From the NCBI GenBank assembly GCA_005798205.1, contig SYKJ01000169.1, positions 1 to 31,467 on the forward strand: a stretch of 31,467 bases of DNA. The letters run 5' to 3'. Positions within the stretch are counted from its first letter, which is position 1; every line of letters starts with the position of its first letter. Shown piece after piece: positions 7,760 to 31,467 of this stretch. Below the pieces are notes generated by a model. That model had not been told where the DNA came from and ran no database searches. It worked only from the letters and a program-made list of their open reading frames with translations. The position numbers and the translations under genes were made by a program. Source of the stretch: Bacteroidota bacterium (lineage in GTDB: Bacteria > Bacteroidota > Bacteroidia > Flavobacteriales > Crocinitomicaceae).

Positions 7760-8740
7760 GTGAAAAGTGATAAAAATAAGGGAAAAGTAATCTATTGGTT
7801 GCAGCCTAAAGAGCTGCTTAATTTTGTATACGTTCATTCTAGGAGTTTTGTTTCAGATTTCAGTAAACAAATGAGCGCTAAAGACAGGGAAAATCAAATT
7901 TATAGAGAGCATATTTATATTGAAAAAGATGAACTTTTAGAAATTTTAAAGACAACTAATAAGCATACTGAGTTTTCACCATCAGGCATCGGGGTTGAAT
8001 TAGGGTCTGGGTGTGCAGCAATTTCTGTGGAATTAACAAACCTTTATCCGGAGGTTGAGAAGATTTTTGCTATTGAAATAGTTCCCGAGATAGTTAAATA
8101 TGCTGCAGTTCCACTAATTTATATGAATATGGTTGAAGAAAAGGTAAAACCAGTTGTTGGAAATTTTGATGATATGAAACTTGAAAACGAATCAGTTGAT
8201 TTTATAATTGAATTTGATAGTTTGCATCACAGTTTTAATCTTGATAAAACAATAAGAGAGTCCGCTCGTATTTTAAAACCTGGTGCAAGACTACTGGCTA
8301 TAGATCGTTCTCACTGGAGTACTTCAAGAAAAAGAAGAGATGAACTTGAGAATACTGTTTATTCTGAAGAATTTCTTATTGCTCGAGGCTTACACAAAAC
8401 CACTCATTTAACTCGTGCGGAAAACGGAGAACATGAGTACTTGTTATCTGAATATTTAGACGCATTTAAAAAAGCTGGTTTTTCTCGCACTGATTGGATA
8501 TTTTTAATCGATCCTAAATTTTCGGTTATTAAACAATCACTAATCAGTGCAGTTCCGTCACGAATAAGGAAGAACACTAAATATTATTATATTCAAACTT
8601 GGCCTCTAAGAAAATTAATTTTTCCAATAATTATGATGCGTATGTTTAATTTAATTAAAGTAGGAAGGTACATAAATTTTCCAAGGGATATAAAGTCCAA
8701 AAGATTTCAAGCCAAAACCGTAATAATCGCTACCAAGTAG
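7760..8740 (+). CDS. Class I SAM-dependent methyltransferase, long form
   Basis: A 326-residue methyltransferase. Motif I is GIGVELGSGCAAISVEL, motif II IFAIEIVPEIVKY, followed by NESVDFIIEFDSLHHSFN and RILKPGARLLAIDRSHW. The C-terminal third (about 230-326) is basic and aromatic, lacks clear homology by eye, and could bind a membrane-linked glycan. It is a lone plus-strand gene between two minus-strand operons, with a leaderless-type GTG start. Its stop overlaps the 3' end of the convergent SDR gene by 11 bp. Confidence 0.8.
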   Translation: MKSDKNKGKVIYWLQPKELLNFVYVHSRSFVSDFSKQMSAKDRENQIYREHIYIEKDELLEILKTTNKHTEFSPSGIGVELGSGCAAISVELTNLYPEVEKIFAIEIVPEIVKYAAVPLIYMNMVEEKVKPVVGNFDDMKLENESVDFIIEFDSLHHSFNLDKTIRESARILKPGARLLAIDRSHWSTSRKRRDELENTVYSEEFLIARGLHKTTHLTRAENGEHEYLLSEYLDAFKKAGFSRTDWIFLIDPKFSVIKQSLISAVPSRIRKNTKYYYIQTWPLRKLIFPIIMMRMFNLIKVGRYINFPRDIKSKRFQAKTVIIATK

Positions 8741-9557
8741 ACCTCCCACCGTCAATTATCAAATTTTGACCAGTCATGTAACTTGAAGCGTCACTAGCTA
8801 AAAATTGAATTGCACCCTTATATTCATCGACAGATGCTAATCTTTTAAGTGGAATATTGTTTTCAAGATTATGTAGGAATTCAGGATCTTGATAATTGGA
8901 AATCGAACCTGGGGATAGCGTGTTAACTCTAATTCCAAAATCTGCAAGATAAGTTGATAGATATTTTGTTAATCCAATTAATCCATGCTTAATAACTGAG
9001 TAAGAAAATGGTTTAAAATATTTCACTTCACTAGACTGGCCATTTTTTTTATAAATTCGCTGATCTGGAGCGATAACCCCTAAATCAGAAGATATGTTTA
9101 TAATTATTCCAGATTTATTTTTAATCATACTTTTAGCCGCATATTTACAGCAATAAACTGCCCCAGTTAAGCCAACAGCAATTTCGTTTTGCCACGATGA
9201 AAAATCAAAATTCTCGAATCTAAAGTCATTTTTATTTTCAGATAGATTCGAAGGTACTTTATGATCAATAAACGCGTTATTTATCAAGATATCAACTTTA
9301 CCTTTGTAGTCAATTACTTGCATGAAAGCTTGTTCTACATTTTTTTCATTAGTTATGTCACACGTGATGTTATAAAAATTATCACTATACGGAGCAAATT
9401 CATTTAATCTCAAAAGCTCAAGAGGTAATAGATCAAAATTAAAAACAATTGCACCTTTTTCGAGCAGAGCCAAGCAATGCTGCTGCCCAAGAAAACCACT
9501 GCCCCCAGTTATAATCGCGATTTTTTTGTGTAAAGAATTTTTGCGAGCTTCCAACAT
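8730..9557 (-). CDS. SDR oxidoreductase, PtmA-like
   Basis: A 275-residue classical short-chain dehydrogenase. The cofactor motif is IITGGSGFLGQQH, then ILINNAFID, the catalytic Ser in NISSDLGVIAPDQRIY, and the YxxxK pair in FSYSVIKHGLIGL. The C-terminus is YMTGQNLIIDGGRSTW. The APDQRIY insertion and GRSTW ending match the SDR group found with CMP-nonulosonate genes (PtmA-like), which supports a link to neuA/neuB in the neighbouring operon. ATG 9557 is chosen: it lies 1 nt after the stop of the TIM-barrel gene, with GGA upstream. An in-frame TTG at 9578 would add 7 residues. Last gene of its operon. Confidence 0.88.
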   Translation of the reverse strand: MLEARKNSLHKKIAIITGGSGFLGQQHCLALLEKGAIVFNFDLLPLELLRLNEFAPYSDNFYNITCDITNEKNVEQAFMQVIDYKGKVDILINNAFIDHKVPSNLSENKNDFRFENFDFSSWQNEIAVGLTGAVYCCKYAAKSMIKNKSGIIINISSDLGVIAPDQRIYKKNGQSSEVKYFKPFSYSVIKHGLIGLTKYLSTYLADFGIRVNTLSPGSISNYQDPEFLHNLENNIPLKRLASVDEYKGAIQFLASDASSYMTGQNLIIDGGRSTW

Positions 9558-9558
9558 T

Positions 9559-10389
9559 TTATTCCACAATCCAATCAAATTTCTTACAGAAATCTATATA
9601 GGATGCAATTAACTCTGTCTCATCTGACTGAAAATCTCTTGCTGCTTGTAAAATCATATTTCCAGCATACCCTTGGTCGCTAAGTAACTTTGCGATTTTT
9701 TTAAAATTTACATCGCCAGTTCCAAGTTTAACCGTATGTCCAGCTAAAAGTCGGTCCTTTATGTGAATATTAAGAATCCGTCCACTACAGACAGAAAGTT
9801 CTTCTTCTGGATTGTGACCTAGTGATGCTGAGTTCCCCATATCAAAATTTACTCCAAAATAATTAGGATTCAATTCACTCAACAAAATAGCGATAGAGCC
9901 TATATCAAATTCACACTCAATTGCTATCTGTTTTTTGGTTTCAGCTAGGTCTTTTTCAATTCTATTCAAGCATTCAATTAAGTTTGAAAGATATTCTTTA
10001 TTGAATACTCCACTTTCTGCGACAATAGGTAATACTAGTATTTTTACTTCTAAATTTTGTAAATTTTCAACAATCCAAAGTAAATCATGAGTATCAGAAG
10101 CCTTACCAGTTAATTCATTGCGTTTATAAAAAGGTGCTTCGACAAAGCAGTCCAGTGTTATAGAGGGAATTTTAATTGAATATTTATCCTGCAGATATTC
10201 AATTTTCGGTTGCTCTTTTAAATTAAACAAAGGATTCAATTTGAAATTTGCATAGTCCAAAGTCCACTCAATCGCTCTTAATCCAAGTTGATTAGCTAGT
10301 TGAAATTCTTTTTCCCAAGAACCTGTTGGAAATTCCTGGATTTTTCCACTTGAAGATTTGCTTAATCGGCCCTGCATTATTCCCAGCAT
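9559..10389 (-). CDS. Sugar phosphate isomerase/epimerase-like TIM-barrel protein
   Basis: A 276-residue xylose-isomerase-like TIM barrel (AP_endonuc_2 superfamily). It opens with MLGIMQGRLSKSS. Likely metal ligands lie in QIAIECEFD (Glu), YFGVNFDMGNS (Asp) and RILNIHIKD (His). The last strand reads MILQAARDF, with Gln where the usual fourth ligand is Glu. It probably isomerises or epimerises a keto sugar or sugar phosphate. The ATG follows the upstream SDR stop by 1 nt and the downstream SDR starts 1 nt after its own stop, so the three form a tightly coupled operon. Confidence 0.8.
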   Translation of the reverse strand: MLGIMQGRLSKSSSGKIQEFPTGSWEKEFQLANQLGLRAIEWTLDYANFKLNPLFNLKEQPKIEYLQDKYSIKIPSITLDCFVEAPFYKRNELTGKASDTHDLLWIVENLQNLEVKILVLPIVAESGVFNKEYLSNLIECLNRIEKDLAETKKQIAIECEFDIGSIAILLSELNPNYFGVNFDMGNSASLGHNPEEELSVCSGRILNIHIKDRLLAGHTVKLGTGDVNFKKIAKLLSDQGYAGNMILQAARDFQSDETELIASYIDFCKKFDWIVE

Positions 10390-10390
10390 A

Positions 10391-11044
10391 TTAATTTGTA
10401 GTTCTTATATGACGTCTTCGAATAATAATTTCTGGTTGCCACGCATTACTTGTGTTATTAATTTTATTTAAAATTTCTTGTGCAACCATATCTACGTCTA
10501 GCAAGGAACTTAACTCTTGATTTGGAACTTTATCTCCCATTTTATTTGCTAAGGTACCAAAAGAAATTAGCCAAAATCTAATATCTGTGTCGATATACTC
10601 CTTATTCAATGCTTTAACTAACCCTAAAATACCCGCTTTGGCAGCGCCGTAAATAACTGTTCCAGCTCCTGCCTCATATGCACTTGTTGAACCTAAAATA
10701 ACTATATTCATTCGTTTATCTTTCTTTACTTGATTTAAGAACGCATGCAAAATTTCGATTTGTGAAGAAAAATTTCCCTCAATTGTTGCATATAAATCCT
10801 CAATAGGCATATTTTTAATAAGTTGCTGATTGAAATAGCCTTGAGCCATTAACAAACATTCACAATTCTCCATTTCAAACCTAATATTTTTATAGTTATC
10901 TACTTTTTTAAAATTAATATTTTTATGATAAATATTTAGTGCATTACGTGAATAAGCGTCTACACTATATTCATTCTTAAGCAAAATATTTATACATGCA
11001 GTTGCTACACTCCCTGAGGCACCCGTAATAATCCACTTTTTCAT
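10391..11044 (-). CDS. SDR-family oxidoreductase, short form
   Basis: A 217-residue short-chain dehydrogenase. The N-terminus is MKKWIITGASGSVATACI (TGxxGxxA cofactor loop). The catalytic residues lie in VILGSTSAYEAGAGTVIYGAAKAG (Ser; Tyr-x-x-x-Lys). It ends soon after the substrate loop and is shorter than usual (about 250). It heads the SDR-TIM barrel-SDR operon and has its own TACAGT box 6 nt before the ATG. Probably acts on a keto intermediate of the same sugar as its neighbours; the substrate is unknown. Confidence 0.85.
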   Translation of the reverse strand: MKKWIITGASGSVATACINILLKNEYSVDAYSRNALNIYHKNINFKKVDNYKNIRFEMENCECLLMAQGYFNQQLIKNMPIEDLYATIEGNFSSQIEILHAFLNQVKKDKRMNIVILGSTSAYEAGAGTVIYGAAKAGILGLVKALNKEYIDTDIRFWLISFGTLANKMGDKVPNQELSSLLDVDMVAQEILNKINNTSNAWQPEIIIRRRHIRTTN

Positions 11045-11050
11045 GGTCTA

Positions 11051-11056
11051 ACTGTA
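11051..11056 (-). promoter_or_regulatory. -10 box for leaderless SDR operon
   Basis: On the minus strand TACAGT (TANNNT) ends 6 nt before the ATG at 11044. The 130-bp gap to the aldo/keto reductase gene supports a separate promoter here. Confidence 0.5.
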
Positions 11057-11174
11057 CCCTATTTTTAGAAATAAACTAATTAAGTATTGTTTTACTAATA
11101 AAAATTTACTTACAAGAAAGTTGAATCCTATAAGATAAATATTAATTATTTCAGATTAGTAGTACATATAAAAT

Positions 11175-12119
11175 TTAAGTTATAACTATGTCTTTAAATG
11201 GTGAAATTAAATTTAAATTTGATTCTAAATTTTTATAAACCGAGTAAATTTCAATCATTTCATCACTTGAGAGCGGTTTGGCTTTCGAGGCGTTTATATT
11301 TTCCTCTAATTCATTTGAATTCATCGCTCCCGGAATCGAATATTCAATCAAACCGTTATCAAGAGTAAATCTTATTGCAAGTTCAGTTAGACTTCTACCG
11401 AGCTTCTCAGAAAGTTTTCGCATTTCAATTGTTGCAAAAATCCATTTATTAATTTGGAGTTTAGACCATTTTGAAAGATGGCTTTTTGGATCCTTTATCA
11501 TATTTATTGAATTACTATGTTTGGTCAAAAAACCAAAATTAAGAGGAGTTCTTGCAATTAAAATCCCATTATATTTCTTACATTGATGCTCATATTCAAG
11601 AATTCTTTGATCTATTAATGAAAAGTTGAATTCTATACTTGCCCATTTCCAGTCATTTTCCAAATTAGCAAATTGATTAGGTTTAGCAATCGAAATACCC
11701 CATTTTTTGACCTTACCTTTTTTGGTCAGAATATCTAAAGTCTCAAAAATATCCGGGAATAAGATTTTGTAGTTTACCATCGGTGAATGTAGTTGTACTA
11801 TAGGTATCGATTCTATATTTAATCTAATTAAAGATTGATCTAATGAATCCTCAATTGATTTTTGAGTGAAATTTAAAGGTACATCAGTTCCAGTATGCGC
11901 AATCATTCCTACTTTAGTTGCGATAATTAAATCATCATTTTTTGGTAAATATTTGCCTAATCGTTCTTCACTTTTCCCAAAACCATATGTAGGGGAGGTA
12001 TCAAAAAAATCTATTCCAGAATCAATGGCCTTATAAATAAGGTTTTTCGACAGGTTATCGTCAATTGATCCGTATGCATCTCCACCTAAACCCCAGCATC
12101 CAAGTCCTAACTTCGACAT
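11175..12119 (-). CDS. Aldo/keto reductase
   Basis: An NAD(P)H-dependent reductase of about 314 residues with the full catalytic tetrad: Asp and Tyr in FFDTSPTYGFGKSEERLG, Lys in IIATKVGM, and His in PIVQLHSP. The barrel start is KLGLGCWGLGGDAYG, and the cofactor-binding end includes EYSIPGAMNSNELEENI. ATG 12119 is used; an in-frame TTG at 12131 adds 4 residues. It is the last gene of the operon transketolase-N, transketolase-C, epimerase, aldo/keto reductase. Probably reduces a keto or aldehyde sugar intermediate of that pathway. The substrate is not deducible. Confidence 0.88.
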   Translation of the reverse strand: MSKLGLGCWGLGGDAYGSIDDNLSKNLIYKAIDSGIDFFDTSPTYGFGKSEERLGKYLPKNDDLIIATKVGMIAHTGTDVPLNFTQKSIEDSLDQSLIRLNIESIPIVQLHSPMVNYKILFPDIFETLDILTKKGKVKKWGISIAKPNQFANLENDWKWASIEFNFSLIDQRILEYEHQCKKYNGILIARTPLNFGFLTKHSNSINMIKDPKSHLSKWSKLQINKWIFATIEMRKLSEKLGRSLTELAIRFTLDNGLIEYSIPGAMNSNELEENINASKAKPLSSDEMIEIYSVYKNLESNLNLISPFKDIVIT

Positions 12120-12136
12120 TTTATTTACCAATTTGC

Positions 12137-13072
12137 TTAGTTCTTAAAATCTATATTGTTATTCACTGCATTTTCGTACCATTTTACCGTTTCATTAATC
12201 ATTTTTGAAAATTTAACATAAGTAAAGTTACTTCGAGATACAAATTCACTATTATTAGTATTTTGAATTAATCTATCATTTGGTTTTAAACCATCAAAAA
12301 ATAATCTACTTGGTTTTATGTTTAGCGCCAAGCAAATTTCAACCGCACATTGCTTAACTGATATTTTTTCGGTCGAACCAATATTTAATAAAGTGTTAAC
12401 ATTCTGATTGTTAAAACACCAAATAGCTGCTTTAGCTAAATCAGAGGAAAAAGTATATTCACGAATTGGTGATCCATCTCCCCAAACTTCAAGTTGATCG
12501 CTACCATTTTTAAGCCTATGAAATCGTTTAATAAGCGCAGCCGGCAGCACTGATTCTCCATCTCTAAAGTTCATAAATGGCCCAATAATTCCATTTACAA
12601 GTATGGAAGAAATTTTCATTCCAAATTCCATATTGTACGATCTCATAATCGGTTCAAACATTCGCTTTGCATAACCATATGAATAATCAACACCTAATAA
12701 TGGTCCCGAGTGAATCATATTTTCTTTTGGATCAATTAATTCGCTTGAATAACATGTTGTAGATAATGTTAAAATTATTCTTGAGATATTTAATTTTTTA
12801 CAAATATCTAATAAATTAAGTACCATCATTATGTTTTCACGAAATAAAGTTGCCGGCATATTTTTGCTTAATTCAGCACCACCGCTTTTTGCAGCTAGAT
12901 GTATTACTCCCGAAATCGAGTGCTTTTTATTTAGATTTTCAATATATTTATATGAGTAATCAAAATCTAATAAATTAAAATCAGAAGTATCAACAAAATA
13001 AAATTCATTAGAATTATTCAAATTCTTAAAAGCGTTACCAAATACACCACCACTTCCAGTAATAAGTATCAT
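12137..13072 (-). CDS. GDP-L-fucose synthase-like epimerase/reductase
   Basis: An extended SDR of about 311 residues resembling GDP-fucose synthase (WcaG) and GDP-colitose synthase (ColC), which epimerise and then reduce a GDP-4-keto-6-deoxy sugar. Motifs: MILITGSGGVFGNAF, GVIHLAAKSGGAELSKN, Ser in LTLSTTCYSS, Tyr/Lys in SYGYAKRMFEP, and DGSPIREYTFSSDLAKA. ATG 13072 lies 1 nt after the transketolase-C stop with GGAAAT upstream; a TTG at 13087 is less likely. If the ColD-like gene near 28 kb works on GDP-sugars, this enzyme is the best local candidate for the step after it. That pairing is inference. Confidence 0.82.
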   Translation of the reverse strand: MILITGSGGVFGNAFKNLNNSNEFYFVDTSDFNLLDFDYSYKYIENLNKKHSISGVIHLAAKSGGAELSKNMPATLFRENIMMVLNLLDICKKLNISRIILTLSTTCYSSELIDPKENMIHSGPLLGVDYSYGYAKRMFEPIMRSYNMEFGMKISSILVNGIIGPFMNFRDGESVLPAALIKRFHRLKNGSDQLEVWGDGSPIREYTFSSDLAKAAIWCFNNQNVNTLLNIGSTEKISVKQCAVEICLALNIKPSRLFFDGLKPNDRLIQNTNNSEFVSRSNFTYVKFSKMINETVKWYENAVNNNIDFKN

Positions 13073-13073
13073 T

Positions 13074-13988
13074 TTAAATTTCCGCAATTAGTTTTAAGTA
13101 ATTAGTGATGTTTAATTCGATTTTATTCCAGTCATACTCATAAAATTTCCGATTTGAGTTTAACACGCGATTGTTATGAATAAATTCTGATTTTGGACCA
13201 ACTCTTTCAATTTCTATTAGTAATTTTCTTTCATTAATAAGACGTAAAATCGGATTGTATATTCCCGAGCTTGGAATTTGCTCTTCCACAAGTATTATCT
13301 TGCGGTGAGATATCAAGAAATTTACTAAAAGATCTTCATCAAGTGGATATAATTGACCTAGATGTAAGTGTGAGACCTTGTTTTTGAATTTATATTCTTG
13401 CAAATTTTCGAAGATATAACTAGAAATTAATCCAGTGGAAATTAATCCCACTGATTTATAATCATTTTCTTTATTATTCAGGTTATTTAATAGTGGTATA
13501 TCTTTTTCACCAAATTTTCCTATCTGAATGTACGAAGACCTCAGTTCATTAATTGATTTAGATAATATTTCAGATAGTTCCCGAGGTCCAGTTGGAGAAA
13601 AAACTAGTAAATTGGGAATCAATAATGCCAAGCCGATATCATCCATAGCATGATGGGTCGGTCCGCTCATAGAATAAGTCAATCCACCCCCTGCTCCAAT
13701 TGCTATAATTTTCATGTTGTTATACCCGCAAAAAAATCGCAACTGTTCATATGCTCTAGAGTTTAAAAATGAAGCAATGGAGTAAATTATAGGCTTAAAT
13801 CCGGAATATGAGAGTCCGGCAGCTATTCCAACCATGGCAGCTTCTGCAATTCCAACATTGTAATATCTGTTTGGAAAATTAGATTTAAATTCATCAAAAA
13901 CTTGGAAACCCAAGTCTCCCGTCAGAAATATAATTTTTTCATCTACCGTCGCGGCTTGTACTAAGCAATCTGCTAAAGCTTTTCGCAA
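13074..13988 (-). CDS. Transketolase, C-terminal subunit (split)
   Basis: The pyrimidine-binding and C-terminal domains of a split transketolase, 304 aa. Visible: IIFLTGDLGF at the start, the catalytic Glu in YYNVGIAEAAMVGIAAGLSY, the aromatic/loop region YEQLRFFCGYNNMKI, and GGLTYSMSGPTHHAMDDI. A TTG start overlaps the N-subunit gene by 16 bp and has a GGAG Shine-Dalgarno 8 nt upstream; no other start lies near. With its partner it would move a two-carbon ketol unit between sugars using thiamine diphosphate. Placement in a glycan cluster suggests a dedicated sugar-building role rather than the pentose phosphate pathway. Confidence 0.9.
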   Translation of the reverse strand: MRKALADCLVQAATVDEKIIFLTGDLGFQVFDEFKSNFPNRYYNVGIAEAAMVGIAAGLSYSGFKPIIYSIASFLNSRAYEQLRFFCGYNNMKIIAIGAGGGLTYSMSGPTHHAMDDIGLALLIPNLLVFSPTGPRELSEILSKSINELRSSYIQIGKFGEKDIPLLNNLNNKENDYKSVGLISTGLISSYIFENLQEYKFKNKVSHLHLGQLYPLDEDLLVNFLISHRKIILVEEQIPSSGIYNPILRLINERKLLIEIERVGPKSEFIHNNRVLNSNRKFYEYDWNKIELNITNYLKLIAEI

Positions 13989-14794
13989 TTAAACAACTCC
14001 AATATATCTAAGGCGAATTTTTTTGCATCTAATTTGTTAATCATTTTAATAATATCTGCCTCTACTGGATTACGATAGTGCCACTCAACACTATTTTGCA
14101 TTAATTCAATAGTTGGATTTTCTTGAGAATCAAGAATATACACCCTAGGTTTTGTGTTATTAATTTGTAATTCTGAATAAATTTTGTCTGGGTCATGTGC
14201 TGAGATTTTATTAGCTAACCACCCAAATGATTCAAATTTACTCATTAAATCTTGATTACCAGAAATTTCTTTATAAGTTCCAGCTGCTTGTACTTGGTTG
14301 TGATCAACTAGTAATATCACATTACCTAATTGCAACCTTCCCGCGACAGTTGCAGCTTCCCACACGCTTCCTTCATTTGATTCTCCATCTCCAATTAATA
14401 TTATAGTTTTATTATTCAATTTATTAAGAGAATTTCCGATTCCAATACCAACTCCAAAAGAAAGACCATGGCCTAAACTCCCGGTAGATAGAGGAATATT
14501 TTTATCTTGAGACAAGTGAATGCCGAAATTACTTTCTTCTTTCCCAAAATTAATCAACTTTTTTGCTTCTAGAAATCCGGTCTGGCTCATAGCTGCATAT
14601 TGAGCTGCAGAAGCATGCCCTTTACTTAGTATAATTTCCGTTCCTGGAAAATTTTTCTTAAAATCAAAAGCAGCAGTCAAAGCTTCAACACAGCTGAGAG
14701 AAGAGGACATATGAGCGCTGCCATTTCGGTATCCGATTAATGCAGTTAGTACACTTGCTCTTTGCGCTCGTTGCTTAAGGTCTACACAAGCCAT
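13973..14794 (-). CDS. Transketolase, N-terminal subunit (split)
   Basis: The thiamine-diphosphate (PP) domain of a split transketolase, 273 aa. Motifs: RNGSAHMSSSLSCVEAL, ILSKGHASAAQYAAM, STGSLGHGLSFGVGIG, and the cofactor motif opening GDGESNEGSVWEAA and closing LLVDHNQ, with the conserved His residues in each. ATG 14794 is preferred over the upstream TTG at 14824: MACVDLKQRAQRASVL matches the usual helical N-terminus, and TACACT lies 7 nt upstream (leaderless pattern). It heads the operon and is divergent from the TylF-like gene. Confidence 0.92.
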   Translation of the reverse strand: MACVDLKQRAQRASVLTALIGYRNGSAHMSSSLSCVEALTAAFDFKKNFPGTEIILSKGHASAAQYAAMSQTGFLEAKKLINFGKEESNFGIHLSQDKNIPLSTGSLGHGLSFGVGIGIGNSLNKLNNKTIILIGDGESNEGSVWEAATVAGRLQLGNVILLVDHNQVQAAGTYKEISGNQDLMSKFESFGWLANKISAHDPDKIYSELQINNTKPRVYILDSQENPTIELMQNSVEWHYRNPVEADIIKMINKLDAKKFALDILELFNCEKL

Positions 14795-14801
14795 GTGCGA
14801 T

Positions 14802-14807
14802 AGTGTA
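14802..14807 (-). promoter_or_regulatory. -10 box for leaderless transketolase operon
   Basis: On the minus strand TACACT (TANNNT) ends 7 nt before ATG 14794. A TTGACA lies only 11 nt further upstream, too close to be the matching -35. Confidence 0.42.
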
Positions 14808-14870
14808 TCGTGCACCAATGTCAAATTGCCATTTGAAATAGATCTAAAACGCTAAGGGAAAGTCTACTAT

Positions 14871-21285: not shown

Positions 21286-22521
21286 ATGCTAGCAACCTCC
21301 TCGTGCCGAATTTGTGGTCATTCAAACTTAAATGAAGTTTTAGATTTAGGCTTAAGCCCAATCTCTGGACACTTCCCAAAAATTGGGGAAGAAACCAAAT
21401 CTCTTCCTCTTACCCTATCAAGATGTGAAGCCTGTGGCCTCATTCAACTTTATAATCAAATGCCAGTTTCAGACTTATATTCTGAAACTTATGGATACGA
21501 ATCACACTTAAATATAAGTATGCAGAAACATTTGCGTACGAAAGCGCTCAATCTACAAAAAATATTTCACAAGAGATTCGGTAATAAAAATGGAGTTTTT
21601 CTTGATATAGCATCTAATGACGGAACTCTGCTTTCTGGGTACATTAACGATGACAGGAATCACAAACTTGTCGGAATTGATCCTTTGATATGTAATTTTG
21701 ACAACCACTATCCAAACAAAGCAATTAAAATACAAAATTTTTTTTCGGCAACTGAATATTTAAAAAGGTTAAGTCAAAAAGCTGATATTGTTACTTCAGT
21801 AAGCGTATTTTATGATCTAGATGACCCAATTCGTTTTGCGAGTGATGTCTTAGAAATTTTATGCGACGATGGAATTTGGCATTTAGAACAAAGTTACTGC
21901 GTAAGTATGATACAGCAGACAAGTTTTGATACAATTTGTCACGAGCATTTATTGTATTTAAGAGCCCATGATTTTAATTATATTTTTGATAAAGTGGGAT
22001 TTACTGTAATTTCGGTAGAGCTTAACGAAATAAATGGCGGTAGCATTTCTCTTTCTGTTGAGAAATCACGCGGAAATAAACATTGCAAAAAATTTAATCA
22101 ATTATTAAATGATGAAATTACTAATGGCTTTTGTGACATTGATATATATTATAAATTTGCAAAAAAAGTACAAATTTATAAGGAGAAATTAGCTCAAGTA
22201 ATTTATAAATACAGCCTAGAGGGTTATAAGATCGTTGGGTTAGGAGCATCAACTAAAGGTAATATTATTTTACATTACTCCGAACTAGACAACTCAATTG
22301 TTAGAGAAATTGGGGAAGTTAACGTAAAGAAATATGGGCGTGTAACACCCGGAACTAAAATACCCATTGTTGATGAAACCAGCATACTAGATAGCAGCGA
22401 TAAAACTTTAGCGATTGTACTCCCTTGGCACTTTAAAGATACTTTTATAAAAAAAACCATTGACTTCCGCAAAAGGGGTAATTTGATTTTATTCCCTTTA
22501 CCTGAAATTGAGATAATTTGA
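21286..22521 (+). CDS. Sugar C-methyltransferase, NovU/TylCIII family
   Basis: A 411-residue three-domain protein like deoxysugar C-3 methyltransferases. The N-terminal zinc-finger-like domain has paired cysteines C7/C10 and C47/C50 (SSCRICGHS, SRCEACGLI) and LDLGLSPISGHF. The SAM domain has FLDIASNDGTLLSGY and WHLEQSYCVSMIQQTSFD. The catalytic-loop motif is HEHLLYLRAHDF, and the C-terminal Methyltransf_14-type domain has INGGSISLSVEK, GLGASTKGNIILHY and LPWHFKDTFI. Known relatives use dTDP-4-keto-6-deoxy sugars. Here a GDP-keto sugar or other glycan sugar is possible, giving a branched-chain sugar. It heads a two-gene unit with the FkbM-like gene, which overlaps its stop. Confidence 0.9.
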   Translation: MLATSSCRICGHSNLNEVLDLGLSPISGHFPKIGEETKSLPLTLSRCEACGLIQLYNQMPVSDLYSETYGYESHLNISMQKHLRTKALNLQKIFHKRFGNKNGVFLDIASNDGTLLSGYINDDRNHKLVGIDPLICNFDNHYPNKAIKIQNFFSATEYLKRLSQKADIVTSVSVFYDLDDPIRFASDVLEILCDDGIWHLEQSYCVSMIQQTSFDTICHEHLLYLRAHDFNYIFDKVGFTVISVELNEINGGSISLSVEKSRGNKHCKKFNQLLNDEITNGFCDIDIYYKFAKKVQIYKEKLAQVIYKYSLEGYKIVGLGASTKGNIILHYSELDNSIVREIGEVNVKKYGRVTPGTKIPIVDETSILDSSDKTLAIVLPWHFKDTFIKKTIDFRKRGNLILFPLPEIEII

Positions 22522-23363: not shown

Positions 23364-24583
23364 CCAATTTTTGCAAATAAATAATTCCACATTGTTTCAG
23401 GAGAGTAATATTTAGCCATAAATTCACCAGAATTTTTACCCATCAATACATACTCTGAATTATTAACTTTGATTCCTTTTAATATAATTTCAATATCTTC
23501 TAAAGTATTAAAAGGTAAATAATGTTCATATGGGATAAACATACTTGATAAAGGAGAATTCCCATTTAATTCTTGCTGAATTAAGGTGCAATTAAGAAAT
23601 ATAGCTTCTAATGATCTGAACGGTAAGAGTACAACACTTTGAGATTTTTGCGCTAAGCCTAATACGTATTGAGAGTTATTTAGTTCATTCAAATAAATAA
23701 CTTCAGATTTTAGATCATTTGATTTGGAGTGATCAGCCCTATTTAAATTAATTGGCAAGTTAAATTTTTGACAGATCTTCCCCGTAAATTTTAGAATATA
23801 TCTCCTGTCACTAGGCCGAATATTTCCCGAGAAATAAATAACTTTTTTCTTATTTAATTCCGGTGTAATCGAATTTACCCACCCTGCAAAAGGCCAAAAT
23901 ATCATTTTTGTCAAATCTAGATTATTGGTAACTGCTGATTCTTGATCCATGTGAATAAAGTAGTCTAGTAATCCACTCCACTTATTTATGAATTTTAAAT
24001 CAAAGTCACGCCAGATATCAAAACAAATTCCTAGCAGCTTTGCTTGCGTAAGTTTTTTTATATTATATAAATTTTGTTCTTCAAGTAATTCGTAATTATC
24101 AAAAATAGTATGTATTTCAAACAAAATATAACTAGGTTTAAGACTGATAATGTCTTGCACGGATAGTTTTTTGTCTAATTTCTTGCTTGATATAATCACG
24201 TCCCCAAACCTAGTTAAAACAATAAATTCAACATTATTTATTTTCTTTAGTGATCTCGCTAAATTTACTATTGTGGTTTGTGTTAAGTTATTATGAGAAT
24301 CTGGAACCACAAATACTATTAATTTAAAAATGTTAGGATTGTTATTACCATTAAATGATATTATTTCTTGAGTAAATTGTGGCAATTTTTTAGGATAGCA
24401 TATTTCAGAAAGTTTTTGTTTTTTATTTTTTTTTTGTGGCTTGAAGTCTGATCTTGGTAAAATCAGATCTATCATAAATAGACAAATAAACAAATTCTTT
24501 TCAAATAAAACAGAATAAAGTTTTAATAATTTAATTTCAAGAAAATGTTTTATTACACGCACATTCCAATTATAACCATTCAT
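23360..24583 (-). CDS. CgeB-like glycosyltransferase (paralog 3)
   Basis: A 407-residue member of the same local family as 16362-17606 and 19823-21094. Shared blocks: KVIYFSGNIRPSDRRYILKF, then VVLLPFRSLEAIFLNCTLIQ, MFIPYEHYLPFNTLEDI and SPETMWNYLFAKIG. The middle lobe reads LLGICFDIWRDFDLKF and YFIHMDQESAV, paralleling paralog 2. A hydrophobic stretch near residues 20-45 (LYSVLFEKNLFICLFMIDLI) may associate with the membrane. A TACAAT box lies 8 nt before the ATG. The gene is monocistronic and divergent from the E1-like pair. Substrate unknown. Confidence 0.68.
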   Translation of the reverse strand: MNGYNWNVRVIKHFLEIKLLKLYSVLFEKNLFICLFMIDLILPRSDFKPQKKNKKQKLSEICYPKKLPQFTQEIISFNGNNNPNIFKLIVFVVPDSHNNLTQTTIVNLARSLKKINNVEFIVLTRFGDVIISSKKLDKKLSVQDIISLKPSYILFEIHTIFDNYELLEEQNLYNIKKLTQAKLLGICFDIWRDFDLKFINKWSGLLDYFIHMDQESAVTNNLDLTKMIFWPFAGWVNSITPELNKKKVIYFSGNIRPSDRRYILKFTGKICQKFNLPINLNRADHSKSNDLKSEVIYLNELNNSQYVLGLAQKSQSVVLLPFRSLEAIFLNCTLIQQELNGNSPLSSMFIPYEHYLPFNTLEDIEIILKGIKVNNSEYVLMGKNSGEFMAKYYSPETMWNYLFAKIG

Positions 24584-24591
24584 CCATTCAG

Positions 24592-24597
24592 ATTGTA
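24592..24597 (-). promoter_or_regulatory. -10 box for paralog 3, short-leader
   Basis: On the minus strand TACAAT ends 8 nt before ATG 24583. It overlaps the -35-like element of the opposite-strand promoter at 24593-24621. Confidence 0.4.
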
Positions 24598-24621
24598 TCT
24601 AAGCGTAATTTATGGTATTAT
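24593..24621 (+). promoter_or_regulatory. Candidate promoter of the E1-like/ABC unit
   Basis: TTGTAT (24593-24598) and TATTAT (24616-24621) are 17 nt apart, and TGG precedes the -10 box (extended -10). A separate TACGCT at 24653-24658 ends 6 nt before ATG 24665, an alternative leaderless -10. Only one need be real. Confidence 0.45.
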
Positions 24622-24664
24622 CTCGTGTTATAACATTGTCTTCTTTTTGGAGTACGCTATAAGT

Positions 24665-25273
24665 ATGCACACTAAATCGGCCAACGAGCTTCGTAATTTT
24701 GAAGATAAGATCACATACCTATTCAACAACCGAGAGATACCTTATCCCATTCATTTGTCAGCAGGGAATGAAGATTCTTTGATTAATATTTTTGATAACG
24801 TTAAAAATAATGATTGGGTTTTTTCCTCATGGAGAAGTCATTACCACTGCCTTCTTAAAGGTGTTCCAGAGATGGAACTTGAGAGAGCGATTATGAATGG
24901 CCGATCGATTGCACTCAATTTTCCTAAATATCGAATTTACTCTTCCGCTATTGTGTCGGGTCAAATATCGCAAGCTGTTGGGGTAGCAATGTCAATAAAG
25001 ATCAAAAAAGAGAATGACACAGTTTGGTGTTTCTTAGGAGATATGGCGTCAGAGACTGGTATTGCTCAAAGTGGCTTTGCTTATTCTGAAAATCTAGATT
25101 TGCCAATAACATTTGTAATTGAGGATAATAATCAATCGGTACTTACCGATACCCGGAAAACTTGGGGTAGCAGTTTATTAAGGTACGAAAGATTTCCAAA
25201 CAAAAAAGTTATTTCCTATAAATATTTAAATTCATATCCTCATGCAGGTGCTGGGATTAGAGTTGAATTTTAA
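24665..25273 (+). CDS. E1-alpha-like thiamine-diphosphate subunit, minimal form
   Basis: A 202-residue protein resembling the thiamine-diphosphate domain of 2-oxoacid dehydrogenase/acetoin dehydrogenase E1 alpha. Matches: HLSAGNEDS, SWRSHYHCLLKGVP, MNGRSIALNFPKYRIYSS, AIVSGQISQAVGVAMS, and the cofactor region from LGDMASETG to VIEDNNQS. The cofactor motif reads GDM instead of GDG, though the Mg-binding Asp and the terminal Asn pair remain. It ends soon after the cofactor region, whereas full E1 alpha is about 330 aa. The frame is open from 24545; ATG 24665 fits the family N-terminus and has TACGCT 6 nt upstream. Its stop abuts the partner's ATG. Likely adds or moves a short acyl/ketol unit on a sugar; no E2/E3 is present. 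Confidence 0.78.
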   Translation: MHTKSANELRNFEDKITYLFNNREIPYPIHLSAGNEDSLINIFDNVKNNDWVFSSWRSHYHCLLKGVPEMELERAIMNGRSIALNFPKYRIYSSAIVSGQISQAVGVAMSIKIKKENDTVWCFLGDMASETGIAQSGFAYSENLDLPITFVIEDNNQSVLTDTRKTWGSSLLRYERFPNKKVISYKYLNSYPHAGAGIRVEF

Positions 25274-25810
25274 ATGACAAGTTATAAAGAAGAGATTACA
25301 AGAGCGATGACTTATCTTGGAAGTAAAAATAATTCCATTTTTATTGGTCAGGCAGTTACTGTCGAAGGAACTGGAATGTCGAAAACTCTAAAAAATGTTA
25401 GTTCAAGCAAACTAATTGAATTCCCCGTTGAAGAAGAATTCCAATTAGGGGTATCGATTGGTCTAGCGCTTAACGGATTAAAACCTATCTGTATATATCC
25501 CCGCTGGAATTTTCTACTTTTAGCAGTAAATCAATTAGTAAACCATTTGGACAAAATCGAAGAACTAAATGCTCAAAATTCAAGTAGTCAATTGATTATT
25601 AGGACAGCTGTTGGATCCGAGTCACCGATGTATCCAGGGCCACAGCATGTTGGAGATTTTACAGATGCTTTTAAACTGCTTTGTAAAAATATTTCTATAC
25701 ACAGACTTGAAAATAAGAATGAAATTTTTGAAACATACAAAAACGCTTATGAGCGGACAGACGACGTATCTAGCCTAATTATTGAAATAAGCGATAAGTA
25801 TAATACTTAA
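25274..25810 (+). CDS. E1-beta-like pyrimidine-binding subunit, minimal form
   Basis: A 178-residue partner of the preceding gene, starting directly after its stop (TAA-ATG). It matches the pyrimidine-binding domain of E1 beta/transketolase: SIFIGQAVTVEGTG, then the cofactor-activating Glu in LIEFPVEEEFQLGVSIGLAL, GLKPICIYPRWNFLLLAVNQ, and MYPGPQHVGDFTDAF in the substrate-side loop. The C-terminal domain of E1 beta (full length about 325 aa) is missing. It ends with NISIHRLENKNEIFETYKNA, where a linker to that domain would begin. With the alpha subunit it forms a two-domain core of about 380 residues. Confidence 0.78.
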   Translation: MTSYKEEITRAMTYLGSKNNSIFIGQAVTVEGTGMSKTLKNVSSSKLIEFPVEEEFQLGVSIGLALNGLKPICIYPRWNFLLLAVNQLVNHLDKIEELNAQNSSSQLIIRTAVGSESPMYPGPQHVGDFTDAFKLLCKNISIHRLENKNEIFETYKNAYERTDDVSSLIIEISDKYNT

Positions 25811-27611: not shown

Positions 27612-28784
27612 TTAAATTTTATTTAGCAGTTCACATAGTTCATTAATTTTACCTTCTTCAAGATTTGGATAATTACCAATATACCAAGAAAATGTGTGAA
27701 TATGCTCAATTATAGGAAATTCATCGAAATTAACTTTATTAATTATGTCAGCTAAGTATGGTTGGCGCATTTGGTTGCCGCCACCTGATAGACCGCGCCT
27801 GTATTCTATTCCATTTTTGCTCAGTTCCAATTCGATTTTATCTCTTAATTTTAAATTTTTGTTTTTCATAATTATAGGAATAGCATATGAACTAGACCCT
27901 TTGGTTTCAAAGTCGCTAAAAAATTTTTCATTGTCAATATATTTAATATAGTCGATAAAATTTTTTGTTCTTGCGATTATATTTTTATCTAATCGTTTTA
28001 ATTGACTACTTCCAAGTAAACCATTTATTTCAGTAGGGCGCATATTATGAGCCGCGTAAGCAAAAATGAATTCTGGATTCAAATCAGGGTACTTACTTAT
28101 ATATTTTTTTCTTATACTATCTGACTTAGATTCCCTTACTAGTCCATGAGATCTCATCATTCTTGCATATTGGTAAATTTCTTCACTATTTGTACTGATC
28201 ATGCCTCCCTCGATAGTTGTCATATGGTGAGCGTAATAAAAGGAAAAATTAGACATTAAGCCATAAGTTCCAACTTTTTTATCATTGTAGGTTGCACCAT
28301 GTGATTCACAGACATCCTCTATAAGGTCAATCTCAAAATTCTTAGCGAAATTCAGTAACTCTCCAGAAATTCCATTTAATCCTAAGACATGTGTTAAAAA
28401 AATAGCTTTTGTCTTCTTCGTAATAACTTTCTCAAGCAATGCCGCATTTAGCGCAAGATTCTTTAATGAAATGTCCACGAAAACCGGTGTATGGCCAGCA
28501 TGAATTATTGATGCAATATCAGAAACCCAAGTTAATGGTGGAACAATTATTTCACATCGACCATACTTTTCTTTGAGTATTAACATCGATATATCATTTG
28601 CAGATGCACCGGAATTGACCATTATAGAAAATTTTGTATTAAGCCATTTATTCCATTCATTTTCAAATTTTTCAACCATTGGACCATGTGTCAATTTTGG
28701 GTCCGGTCTATTTAAATGAAGAATTACCTCGTCTAGATCAACTTTTTCAACGTTATTCAACATTAATGGCCATTTATGATTCAT
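27612..28784 (-). CDS. ColD-like PLP-dependent GDP-4-keto-6-deoxysugar 3-dehydratase
   Basis: A 390-residue DegT/DnrJ/EryC1-fold protein in which the PLP-binding Lys is replaced by His. The motif SFYYAHHMTTIEGGM (181-195) has His186 where aminotransferases have Lys. This is the hallmark of ColD, which makes GDP-4-keto-3,6-dideoxymannose for colitose (E. coli ColD: His188, 388 aa). EDVCESHGATYNDKKVGTYG and NMRPTEINGLLGSSQL also align with ColD from memory. The other Lys-to-His relative, the CDP-sugar dehydratase E1/RfbH, is longer and carries four iron-sulfur cysteines, which are absent here. ATG 28784 overlaps the hddA stop by 4 bp (ATGA) with GGGAG upstream. Coupling to heptose genes raises the chance of a heptose substrate. 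No GDP-mannose dehydratase is in view. Confidence 0.85.
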   Translation of the reverse strand: MNHKWPLMLNNVEKVDLDEVILHLNRPDPKLTHGPMVEKFENEWNKWLNTKFSIMVNSGASANDISMLILKEKYGRCEIIVPPLTWVSDIASIIHAGHTPVFVDISLKNLALNAALLEKVITKKTKAIFLTHVLGLNGISGELLNFAKNFEIDLIEDVCESHGATYNDKKVGTYGLMSNFSFYYAHHMTTIEGGMISTNSEEIYQYARMMRSHGLVRESKSDSIRKKYISKYPDLNPEFIFAYAAHNMRPTEINGLLGSSQLKRLDKNIIARTKNFIDYIKYIDNEKFFSDFETKGSSSYAIPIIMKNKNLKLRDKIELELSKNGIEYRRGLSGGGNQMRQPYLADIINKVNFDEFPIIEHIHTFSWYIGNYPNLEEGKINELCELLNKI

Positions 28785-29785
28785 ACAAGGCACTCCCAAG
28801 GTTGAGAAGCAACGATTGATGCGCCAGAAAAGTCAACCTTAAATGGAACCTCTTTACCTAGCTTAAATCCATTCCTAAATCTTTCCTTATCATTTTTCTT
28901 GAGCCAAAATAAACAAAAACCACCACCTCCAGCACCAAGCACTTTGCCCCCTAAAGCCCCTGAAGCAATTCCATTATTCAAGAATTCGTGAATGGCAGAA
29001 GTTCCAGCATACGGATTAGCTTTAAATTTTAAATTAGATGTTTCCTGTAAAAGCTCTCCCAATGCATCCAAATCAGAATTTTCAACTAATAATTTCTCGG
29101 CGATATCTACTAATTCCATAGTCTTAATTAACACACTTTCATTTGCTAGTAGATTGTCAATTAAACCCCTCGAAACATCAGAACTTAATCTTTGCACACC
29201 AGTGTAAACCAGATAACACCTTTCTTCAACTTCTGCAATTCTTTCCAAAGATAATTTTAATTGTTCAACTTCCCACGCACCCCGACTTGGAAAAATAATC
29301 TTATTAATTCCACCAAATGTACAAGCAATTTGATCTTGAGAACCTACATTCTCACCAATAGAATTCTGTTCTAGTTCAATTGCCATAAGAGACAATTCCT
29401 TTTTATTTAATTCGATATTATTCATTTTATTCAACCCATGAATTATTGATACAGCAAACGCAGAACTTGATCCAATTCCGCTTTTTGAAGGAAGATCACC
29501 ATGATGCTGTATCTCTAGATTTCTACCAGCTACAATCCCATATTTTTTAATTGATTCTCGGATAGCAGGATGCTCAATTTGCTCAACTTCATTAACAGTT
29601 TCTATTTTTGAATATACAGCTCGAAATTTATAATCAAAATATGGTGGCAGCTCTCTGATACTTAAGTGGCAGTATTTATCTATAGTGAATGAAATGACTG
29701 AACCACCATGTAAATTAAACCAAGCGGGCATATCAGTACCCCCACCAAATAGTGAAACTCTGAAAGGAGTTCTAGTAATTATCAC
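28781..29785 (-). CDS. hddA: D-glycero-D-manno-heptose 7-phosphate kinase (GHMP family)
   Basis: Phosphorylates C1 of D-glycero-D-manno-heptose 7-phosphate to the alpha-1,7-bisphosphate, the GDP-heptose branch. The 334-residue GHMP kinase has MIITRTPFRVSLFGGGTDMP, the substrate-side HGGSVISFTIDKYCHLSIR, the ATP-loop GDLPSKSGIGSSSAF, the catalytic-region GENVGSQDQIACTFGG and the C-terminal GGKVLGAGGGGFCLFW. These are HddA features rather than those of galactokinase or mevalonate kinase. A GTG start lies 9 nt after the epimerase stop. Order in the operon: gmhB (with its own promoter), SDR epimerase, hddA, colD-like. Confidence 0.92.
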   Translation of the reverse strand: MIITRTPFRVSLFGGGTDMPAWFNLHGGSVISFTIDKYCHLSIRELPPYFDYKFRAVYSKIETVNEVEQIEHPAIRESIKKYGIVAGRNLEIQHHGDLPSKSGIGSSSAFAVSIIHGLNKMNNIELNKKELSLMAIELEQNSIGENVGSQDQIACTFGGINKIIFPSRGAWEVEQLKLSLERIAEVEERCYLVYTGVQRLSSDVSRGLIDNLLANESVLIKTMELVDIAEKLLVENSDLDALGELLQETSNLKFKANPYAGTSAIHEFLNNGIASGALGGKVLGAGGGGFCLFWLKKNDKERFRNGFKLGKEVPFKVDFSGASIVASQPWECLV

Positions 29786-29794
29786 GAGAATTAC

Positions 29795-30727
29795 TCACAT
29801 GTTGGAGAATTGTTTGTTTTGAAAAATTGGAAGCCCCTTTATTAACTCTACAATTCCATCATTTAAACTTTTTGTGTGCTTAAAGCCCACACCTTCAATT
29901 TTTTCATTGGAAACTACATAATTTCTTTTATCGGGATCACTCCCAACATCAGAATTAAAGTAAACAAAGTCAGGTAAATAATTTTTAATTTTCTCACACA
30001 ACTCAATTTTAGAAATATTTGCATTAGATAGCCCTACATTAAATATTTGTCCCATAAATTTTTCTGGAGAGTTAATTGCAAGATTAAATGCCTGAACGAC
30101 ATCTTCCAAATGGATATAATTGCGTTTAAAATTACCTTCAAATAAAACAATAAATCTGTCTTTTAGTGCTCGATGGACGAAATTATTTACAAGCAAATCT
30201 AATCTCATTCGTGGCGAAACACCAAAGACTGTTGCCAACCTAAAACTAGTTGCATTGTGATTTTCCATAACAATTTTCTCTATTTCAACCTTGTCTTTAG
30301 AATATAAAGAAAGTGGGTTAAGTTCGCTATTCTCGTCACAATAATTTAATCCATTTCCACTTCCATAAGCACTGTTAGTTGTTGGCATGATAACTCGTTG
30401 ATTGGTTGATAATATTTTTAACATTTCAAATATTGCATTTTTGTTCGTACTTGTTGCCAATAACGGATCCTTAGCACAAGCTGGAGCTCCCACTATCGCA
30501 GCAAGTGGTATAATTAAATCAGCTTGCGAATAATAACTTTTTATGTCTGAAATATTTCTAATATCTTTAAATACAAATTCTAAATTTTTATTTCCGATAA
30601 GATGGGCTATACTTGTTTGGTTATAAATTAAACTGTCAATAACTGTGACTTTATGGCCAGAATTAAGAAGATCTAGAACAAGTACGCTTCCGATATAACC
30701 AGCTCCACCGGTTACTACAATATTCAT
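29795..30727 (-). CDS. NAD-dependent epimerase/dehydratase (extended SDR)
   Basis: A 310-residue extended SDR. MNIVVTGGAGYIGSVLVLDL is the GxxGxxG cofactor loop, followed by LIIPLAAIVGAPACAKDP, active-site PTTNSAYGSG and YSKDK (Tyr-x-x-x-Lys), FRLATVFGVSPRMRLD, and NYIHLEDVVQAF. It resembles UDP-glucose 4-epimerase-type proteins. The PLAAIVGAPAC stretch marks a subgroup often seen in polysaccharide clusters. It sits between gmhB and hddA, so a (GDP-)heptose or its keto derivative is a reasonable substrate, as 4,6-dehydratase or epimerase, but this is inferred from position. A strong AGGAG Shine-Dalgarno precedes the ATG. Confidence 0.83.
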   Translation of the reverse strand: MNIVVTGGAGYIGSVLVLDLLNSGHKVTVIDSLIYNQTSIAHLIGNKNLEFVFKDIRNISDIKSYYSQADLIIPLAAIVGAPACAKDPLLATSTNKNAIFEMLKILSTNQRVIMPTTNSAYGSGNGLNYCDENSELNPLSLYSKDKVEIEKIVMENHNATSFRLATVFGVSPRMRLDLLVNNFVHRALKDRFIVLFEGNFKRNYIHLEDVVQAFNLAINSPEKFMGQIFNVGLSNANISKIELCEKIKNYLPDFVYFNSDVGSDPDKRNYVVSNEKIEGVGFKHTKSLNDGIVELIKGLPIFQNKQFSNM

Positions 30728-30804
30728 AAATCTCCTTAAATTAAAGACTTTTCAATAGGTTTCTATAATACATCAAAACAAAGAATTATTGCTTATGATC
30801 AGAA

Positions 30805-31326
30805 TCACCTTGATTTTGACAATATTATTTCACATGCCTCTATTAGGTTTTCACACTTATAATCAGCATGTATTGACTGTGCTTGACCGCCACCAATTTG
30901 AATGGTTTTACAACCACCTTTTTTTCCAAACTCCATGTCGCTTTCAGTATCACCAACCATAAAACTAGCTTTAGCGTCTAGTCCAAATTGATTAATCGCA
31001 TTATCCATGAATTTTTGCTTAGGCTTTCTGCAATTACATTTTTCTTCAGGAGTATGTGGACATACAAGTATGAATTCAATGTCTATAAAGTTTAAACTTA
31101 ACTTTTCTTTAATAAAATCGTTTACTAATTTTACTTGCTCGTAAGTACCAAGCTTTCTGCTAATCAAAGATTGATTAGTGATAATGCCTAAATGATAATT
31201 GTTAGCAGTTAACTTTTTTAAAGAATCAAAAATTCCGTCTGCAAATACAACTTGGTCAATTTTATTCAAATATTTAACATGCTTGATCAGAGTTCCATCT
31301 CTATCAAAAATTACATATTTGGCCAC
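30805..31326 (-). CDS. gmhB: Heptose 1,7-bisphosphate 7-phosphatase (GmhB, HAD-IIIA)
   Basis: Removes the 7-phosphate from D-glycero-D-manno-heptose 1,7-bisphosphate. A 173-residue HAD phosphatase: motif I YVIFDRDGTLI, motif II GIITNQS, the zinc-loop CPHTPEEKCNCRKPK (Cys, His, Cys, Cys), and motif IV MVGDTESDMEFG followed by GCKTIQIGGG. The short zinc loop differs from the long loop of E. coli GmhB and suits the GDP-heptose (alpha-anomer) type paired with HddA. A GTG start has TATCAT 6 nt upstream and no Shine-Dalgarno, so it is probably leaderless. A 77-nt gap separates it from the epimerase. Confidence 0.92.
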   Translation of the reverse strand: MAKYVIFDRDGTLIKHVKYLNKIDQVVFADGIFDSLKKLTANNYHLGIITNQSLISRKLGTYEQVKLVNDFIKEKLSLNFIDIEFILVCPHTPEEKCNCRKPKQKFMDNAINQFGLDAKASFMVGDTESDMEFGKKGGCKTIQIGGGQAQSIHADYKCENLIEACEIILSKSR

Positions 31327-31422: not shown

Positions 31423-31467
31423 AGCAACCCCAGCAACCCCAGCAACCCCAGCAACCCCAGCAACCCC
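31423..31467. repeat. 9-bp tandem repeat, at least five copies
   Basis: Five perfect copies of AGCAACCCC run to the window end, so the true number is unknown. The array is far more GC-rich than its surroundings. On the minus strand all three frames through it stay open and then meet stops at 31412-31414, 31399-31401 and 31395-31397. It could therefore be the 3' end of an upstream minus-strand gene encoding Gly-Cys-Trp, Gly-Val-Ala or Gly-Leu-Leu repeats, or a non-coding array. Confidence 0.9.

Follow-up and report, generated by a model that had tools for sequence, protein, structure and literature searches.

The window analysed here is the whole 31,467-nucleotide stretch of contig SYKJ01000169.1, from a Bacteroidota bacterium of the family Crocinitomicaceae, and our interest lies in a short operon near its right edge that includes a ColD-like sugar 3-dehydratase. 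The window has a GC content of 32% and looks like a surface-polysaccharide locus; it also encodes glycosyltransferases, methyltransferases, a NeuB/cytidylyltransferase pair and an ABC transporter. The four genes reported in a preliminary description of this DNA are real and lie on the minus strand in the order GmhB-like, short-chain dehydrogenase/reductase (SDR), HddA-like, ColD-like. The overlap of the dehydratase start with the kinase stop was confirmed as the tetranucleotide ATGA, in support of translational coupling of the two genes, with the gmhB-like gene and the epimerase-type SDR in the same run. These genes, together with a pair of genes for a thiamine diphosphate (ThDP) enzyme on the other strand, are given below; PLP and PMP stand for pyridoxal and pyridoxamine 5'-phosphate.

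30805 to 31326, minus strand: GmhB-like heptose 1,7-bisphosphate 7-phosphatase (NCBIfam PRK08942, 119 bits, cut-off 178)
29795 to 30727, minus strand: Cj1427-like SDR (Cj1427 is the best match in both sequence and structure)
28781 to 29785, minus strand: HddA-like GHMP heptose-7-phosphate kinase (NCBIfam HddA, 113 bits, cut-off 600; PDB 4usk, a sugar kinase, 3e-30)
27612 to 28784, minus strand: ColD-like PLP/PMP-dependent 3-dehydratase, His186 replacing Lys (Pfam PF01041; PDB ColD, 8e-46)
24665 to 25273, plus strand: alpha subunit of a short two-subunit E1-like ThDP enzyme (PF00676; motif GDM...N)
25274 to 25810, plus strand: beta subunit of the E1-like ThDP enzyme, pyrimidine-binding domain only (PF02779)

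The identification of the last gene of the operon as a ColD-type protein with His186 in place of the PLP lysine held up. The AlphaFold model of the dehydratase (pLDDT 93) has ColD as its top structural matches and the 3-dehydratase E1 as the second, and both the ColD fold and the cofactor-site residues are present at 32% identity to ColD. With the dehydratase as query, 37 genome loci and 69 predicted-virus loci (numbered with an L below) were found, of which 59 were left after the removal of near-copies, and the residue at the position of His186 is His in 59/59 of these dereplicated loci and across the 120 protein matches listed. Family membership thus supports a ColD/E1-type PMP-dependent 3-dehydratase, and C3-dehydration is the predicted reaction. 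The phylogenetic tree puts the window dehydratase in a clade of its own apart from ColD (60 rows, support 100/99, with long-branch warnings on the reference rows); a position within the hexose-specific ColD enzymes, which the preliminary description had named as evidence against its heptose proposal, did not emerge. A Sulfitobacter enzyme adjoining gmd and GDP-fucose synthase joins ColD at 100/100 and a Haladaptatus enzyme joins it at 94/71 only, both outside the window clade. The loci nearest to the window in this tree are L001, placed near it at 99/92, and L002. ColD-like matches below 42% identity were tallied separately as weak (n = 15); 12 of them, from loci found with a radical S-adenosylmethionine (radical-SAM) query, form a second His-type clade, and two others carry Lys. 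This second clade (motif FGHQLS(T/S)IEGG) takes the place of the window-type dehydratase in 12 of the more distant radical-SAM loci, namely L145, L171 and ten more.

The SDR of the operon matches Cj1427 at 1.6e-91 and 48% identity, the next match being at 2e-19; the Cj1427 structure is 6VO6, identified from its PDB title. Its family has N-S in 47/47 rows at the site where 4,6-dehydratases have Asp-Glu, a pair that we take to be the functional motif of the latter enzymes. We predict from its sequence that the operon SDR is a Cj1427-type GDP-heptose C4-dehydrogenase. A tblastn search of the window with one GDP-mannose 4,6-dehydratase (GMD) query found no GMD (best match 50 residues, E 0.018), and the broad Pfam model PF16363 matches two window SDRs above its cut-off. 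The preliminary description had proposed GDP-4-keto-6-deoxyheptose as the substrate of the dehydratase. The heptose part of this proposal is probably right; the 6-deoxy part is doubtful at best, with no GMD found in the window and a Cj1427-like supplier that carries N-S. Its suggestion that flanking DNA be searched for HddC and a 4,6-dehydratase was followed within the window, where neither HddC nor GMD was found but the Cj1427-like SDR and a GmhA-like gene are present; the only matches from the HddC search were to the GmhB portion of HddC-GmhB fusions.

The window holds GmhA-, HddA- and GmhB-like genes, and the best explanation of its sequence is that it carries most of a GDP-heptose pathway. 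Other PDB matches of the HddA-like kinase are 3k85 and 4n3o, both named heptose kinases. The GmhA-like gene lies 25 kb off and would belong to the same pathway:

2085 to 2666, minus strand: GmhA-like sedoheptulose-7-phosphate isomerase (NCBIfam gmhA, 147 bits, cut-off 209)

Among the 37 genome loci, an HddC-like cluster (c5) is found in 25, two of which were scanned with models, and GmhA-like genes in 13. HddC and GmhB are apparently fused, as proteins of 392-394 residues adjoining the cassette of operon and partner genes, in the SAR11 genome loci L020, L025, L027 and L030. The domains were scanned in L025 (14176-15357; HddC 118 bits, cut-off 300; GmhB 126 bits, cut-off 150), and the other three were assigned by clustering and by a partial match to the window GmhB.

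The E1-like pair (24545-25810, plus strand) is very short, Pfam finding no transketolase C-terminal domain in the beta subunit, and similar short forms are seen in other cassette loci. The open reading frame of the alpha subunit is open from 24545; a viral scan with the E1 alpha query gave only four loci, and these align from residue 40-45 only. The window alpha subunit has 44-60% identity to the short-form alpha subunits of other cassette loci, and the beta subunit has 31-60% identity over 41 matches, of which 38 reach at least 45%. Both subunits and the ThDP motif of a two-subunit E1-type enzyme are seen, beside a keto-sugar pathway, and we infer from the sequences that the pair is the branching enzyme, transferring an acyl group from pyruvate to the keto-sugar. 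In the nearest relatives the pair lies inside the operon with all genes in one direction (GmhB-GmhA-SDR-HddA-E1a-E1b-ColD in L001; SDR-HddA-E1a-E1b-ColD-radical-SAM in L002). The type of ThDP enzyme varies among the 41 of 42 dereplicated loci of at least 15 kb that have one: an E1 pair in 24, a split transketolase in 13, an acetolactate-synthase-like enzyme in 2, and the latter together with E1 in 2. Of nine ThDP superfamilies, PMC12247030 names only three, the E1-like, transketolase and YerE-like enzymes, as known to act on ketones, with the C-branching of keto-sugars among the reactions; for transketolases this role on sugars is no more than proposed. The replacement of one type by another therefore suggests that this slot needs a ketone-acceptor reaction.

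For the partner counts, an SDR was accepted at 38% identity or more and a GMD at 45% or more, and loci below 12 or 15 kb were kept outside the main counts. The 42 dereplicated loci of at least 15 kb contain the SDR in 37, the kinase in 37 and a radical-SAM enzyme with a B12-binding-like domain in 35. At a minimum of 12 kb, the 25 viral loci have the SDR in 24, the radical-SAM enzyme in 24, the ThDP enzyme in 24, the kinase in 23 and GMD in 0, and the 28 genome loci have the SDR in 23, the radical-SAM enzyme in 19, the ThDP enzyme in 26, the kinase in 24 and GMD in 2 (L001 and L034). The GMD counts for the window clade taken without dereplication are 0/52 viral and 2/31 genome loci. As a control we used the sister clade of the dehydratase (Synechococcus phage ACG-2014f type), for which the best 80 of 184 loci gave 48 after dereplication and 42 of at least 12 kb; these 42 have GMD in 41, the Cj1427-like SDR in 0, the radical-SAM enzyme in 0 and the ThDP enzyme in 3 (before dereplication, 62/65, 0/65, 0/65 and 8/65). 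The two clades thus mostly have different suppliers of the 4-keto sugar, which fits a split between hexose and heptose. A reverse search from the radical-SAM enzyme (best 80 of 120 loci, partly the same contigs as in the dehydratase search) gave 51 loci of at least 12 kb, with the SDR in 46 and the ThDP enzyme in 50. A viral scan with the window SDR as query gave no confirmed locus, its patterns being presumed too specific, and the presence of the SDR was counted within the loci from the other scans. On the viral contigs (L038-L106) the cassette often lies amid genes common to these contigs, one of them metallophosphoesterase-like.

The same association is found in whole genomes. A set of 265 genomes of one genus, reached via a locus titled Bradyrhizobium, has the SDR in 5 and the radical-SAM enzyme in the same 5. 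In the short loci taken at these genes the kinase is always there (5/5); the dehydratase, the transketolase N-terminal gene and a GmhA-like gene are each found in 4, an HddC-like gene in 2. Among 197 genomes of one SAR11 family, 32 have the SDR, 23 the radical-SAM enzyme and 20 both (Fisher 3e-16), and 23 of the 26 with a strong dehydratase match (E 1.4e-108 or better) have the SDR (1e-19), these p-values being inflated by the relatedness of the genomes, whose species are not independent. The 14 weaker dehydratase matches in this set, among which G423 (3.2e-105) was placed, are unlinked to the SDR (3/14, p 0.70).

With these results we consider it somewhat probable that the cassette makes a 4-C-branched GDP-3-deoxyheptose by C4 oxidation, C3 deoxygenation and ThDP-dependent branching. 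The gene order, the family assignments, His186 and the co-occurrence across the clade are observed; the substrates, order of steps and branch chemistry are predictions and would be as follows. The Cj1427-like SDR would oxidise C4 of GDP-heptose; the ColD-like enzyme, as its PMP form, would form a ketimine at C4 with expulsion of the C3 hydroxyl, and would release GDP-3-deoxy-4-keto-D-glycero-heptose with the C6 oxygen retained. In the next step the C4 ketone would receive a two-carbon acyl group from the ThDP enzyme, with pyruvate as its source if the E1 pair is at work, and a 4-C-branched 3-deoxyheptose would result; in many relatives the radical-SAM enzyme would further modify this branched sugar. 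The first two activities have been combined in vitro, where Cj1427 and the C3-dehydratase of Campylobacter jejuni HS:5 give GDP-3-deoxy-4-keto-heptose (PMC10680097).

Several observations weigh against this pathway. The HddA, GmhB and GmhA matches are all under their curated cut-offs, and neither HddC nor the radical-SAM gene was found in the window, whose contig ends in a tandem repeat. The window E1 pair is on the opposite strand, 1.8 kb from the operon, and the SDR is missing in 5/42 large loci. The nucleotidyltransferase of L009 scores 161 bits with a mannose-1-phosphate guanylyltransferase model versus 144 with HddC, and in 4/5 virus records searched, which are possibly fragments, the PF00483 nucleotidyltransferase is absent though the kinase is kept, so that such phages would have to use host GDP-heptose. 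Without an identity threshold, GMD-labelled matches are found in 5 of 25 viral loci and 8 of 28 genome loci. In L001, which carries a complete Cj1427-like operon, a GMD-like gene of 47% identity (381 bits with the gmd model, cut-off 415) follows just after the dehydratase gene on the opposite strand, convergent with it; in L034, GMD (52%) occurs with a transketolase pair, and both the SDR and the kinase are missing. The window clade is therefore not purely a heptose clade, and because L001 and L034 carry GMD, a 4,6-dehydratase may lie outside the window. In L034, from a SAR11 bacterium, the clade member adjoins RmlC-like, GMD and split-transketolase genes (11176-14405), and this locus may make a branched 3,6-dideoxyhexose.

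Two further features of the window bear on the alternatives:

13074 to 14824, minus strand: split-gene transketolase pair (N 13973-14824, C 13074-13988; PF00456 and PF02779), possibly a second branching enzyme, of uncertain membership
12137 to 13072, minus strand: GDP-fucose-synthase-like SDR (NCBIfam Fcl, 108 bits, cut-off 500), a candidate late epimerase/reductase, of uncertain membership

The transketolase pair has 22-38% identity to those of other cassette loci, and a homologue of the GDP-fucose-synthase-like SDR (40% identity) lies close to the cassette in L014. The GDP-fucose-synthase-like SDR may be part of a different outcome, in which GDP-3-deoxy-4-keto-heptose is epimerised and reduced by RmlC-like and GDP-fucose-synthase-like enzymes to an unbranched sugar, the ThDP and radical-SAM enzymes serving another sugar of the locus. 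The GDP-fucose-synthase-like SDR is at hand in the window, RmlC-like cluster c14 is found in 7 of the 25 viral and 8 of the 28 genome loci left after dereplication, and C4-reductases act in vitro on GDP-3-deoxy-4-keto-heptose (PMC10680097). We nevertheless hold this outcome to be unlikely, since 41/42 large dereplicated loci have a ThDP enzyme, compared with 3/42 of the control set (drawn from the best 80 of 184 loci), and since in L001 and L002 its genes are part of the operon itself.

The conversion of GDP-4-keto-6-deoxyheptose to GDP-3,6-dideoxyheptose, with a 4,6-dehydratase encoded beyond the ends of the window, had been put forward in the preliminary description as a route not known to it, and that novelty has gone, the C. 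jejuni 3,6-dideoxyheptose route with a ColD-type C3-dehydratase being already published (PMC10440746). Such a pathway thus exists in nature, the window is a fragment, L001 as its tree neighbour has the GMD-like gene beside the dehydratase, and the HS:5 enzyme takes both the 6-deoxy and the 6-hydroxy 4-keto-heptose (PMC10680097). Against this stand the Cj1427-type C4-dehydrogenase in the operon and in most dereplicated loci (24/25 viral, 23/28 genome), the near absence of GMD at 45% or more from the same loci (0/25 and 2/28), and the 32% identity of the window protein to ColD, compared with 62-67% to ColD-type enzymes for those of C. jejuni (PMC10440746), and we find the route quite improbable here. 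An ordinary colitose-type pathway, with a hexose GDP-4-keto-6-deoxymannose 3-dehydratase, shares the fold and active-site His of ColD and could use the GDP-fucose-synthase-like gene, but with no gmd found in the window, the gmd-associated Sulfitobacter and Haladaptatus enzymes outside the window clade and the kinase, GmhB and GmhA homologues indicating heptose, it is very hard to sustain.

For the radical-SAM step, which would follow branching to the 3-deoxyheptose in many relatives, the candidate reactions are ring closure, diol dehydration and methylation. CxxxCxxC is present in 158/158 long members found and DxHxxG in 2/158, which makes the B12-binding-like domain only putatively cobalamin-binding. 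Among 29 members scanned, HpnJ matched 29/29, BchE 29/29 and AprD4 28/29; in L025 the best NCBIfam models are HpnJ and BchE, every match being under its curated cut-off. HpnJ and BchE are ring-forming enzymes. Among solved structures the closest is 6fd2 (3e-26), by its name presumably the diol dehydratase AprD4, and this relationship speaks for a reaction other than ring closure. It is improbable, in our estimate, that the cassette in its complete form, with the GDP-heptose genes, the Cj1427-like oxidase, the ColD-like 3-dehydratase and the ThDP and radical-SAM enzymes, makes a carbocyclic caryose-type 3-deoxy-nonose, in which acetyl would be added at C4 and the radical-SAM enzyme would join C7 to the C8 carbonyl carbon. 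Caryose is a 4,8-cyclo-3,9-dideoxy-nonose (PMC9026286). Formally it is a 3-deoxyheptose with two carbons at C4, then closed between C7 and C8, a match that is retrosynthetic only, and on our reading of its name an inversion at C5 would be needed. To our knowledge no genes have been assigned to caryose, which is produced by Burkholderia (Trinickia) caryophylli and for which the cassette offers a testable genetic signature; if the carbocyclic proposal were true, surface sugars with a carbon ring would be a product of SAR11 bacteria and of phages alike. Bradyrhizose was also considered as the product; its known producers are photosynthetic Bradyrhizobium, and its genes were unknown in 2016 (PMC4743980). 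We rejected it because, among the 265 genomes, 26 of the 27 Photo_RC genomes are without the SDR (E <= 1e-80, 8 best candidates per genome scored) and the radical-SAM enzyme (E <= 1e-50), only G041 having both.

Elsewhere in the window, a perfect 9-bp tandem repeat, AGCAACCCC, in five copies occupies the right edge (31423-31467), where the assembly probably broke. A minus-strand run at 4286-6901 encodes a NeuB-like synthase, a PseF-like cytidylyltransferase and a Gfo/Idh oxidoreductase, a nonulosonic-acid-like pathway near the heptose genes. The split transketolase and the GDP-fucose-synthase-like SDR form one minus-strand run (8730-14824) with an aldo/keto reductase, an SDR, a sugar-isomerase-like TIM barrel and another SDR; because L014 has homologues of the aldo/keto reductase, the GDP-fucose-synthase-like SDR and the transketolase near its cassette, this run may be a second branched-sugar operon. 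A C-methyltransferase of PF08421/PF08484 type, a family associated with C-methylated keto-sugars, is encoded at 21286-22521 on the plus strand.

The gene module recurs across phyla, in bacteria from the sea and elsewhere, among them the cultured Cohaesibacter celericrescens (L032), and in viruses, and its predicted products, 4-C-branched 3-deoxyheptoses, would give GDP-3-deoxy-4-keto-heptose a natural role. We suggest the adjoining 4-keto supplier as a sign that separates hexose from heptose 3-dehydratases. A search of openly licensed papers, and so weak evidence of absence, found none naming such a cassette as a pathway in its title or abstract; radical-SAM cassettes and lipopolysaccharide genes are mentioned for pelagimyophages (PMC7029224). 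Most likely the cassette is a variant of known nucleotide-sugar branching pathways with a C4-branched GDP-3-deoxyheptose product. It shares GDP-heptose genes and a ColD-type PLP C3-dehydratase with C. jejuni HS:5/HS:11, whose pathway relies on a 4,6-dehydratase together with a C5 epimerase and for which the cited section of PMC10440746 names no ThDP or radical-SAM gene. With the Cj1427 branch of C. jejuni HS:2 (GDP-D-glycero-L-gluco-heptose) it shares the C4-dehydrogenase family at 48% identity, but there a C3/C5 epimerase and a C4 reductase follow, whereas the window has a 3-dehydratase; GDP-3-deoxyheptoses themselves have been made in vitro by the mixing of enzymes (PMC10680097). Colitose ColD has the same fold, active-site His and presumed PMP chemistry, and differs in clade, in 4-keto supplier and in sequence, at 32% identity. 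Yersiniose A (YerE) and the aldgamycin/kosinostatin type are likewise ThDP-branched deoxy-keto sugars, yersiniose sharing the 3-deoxygenated substrate and aldgamycin the two-subunit E1-like enzyme (PMC12247030); they are built on CDP- or other hexoses, whereas here the substrate would be a GDP-heptose and relatives add a radical-SAM partner.

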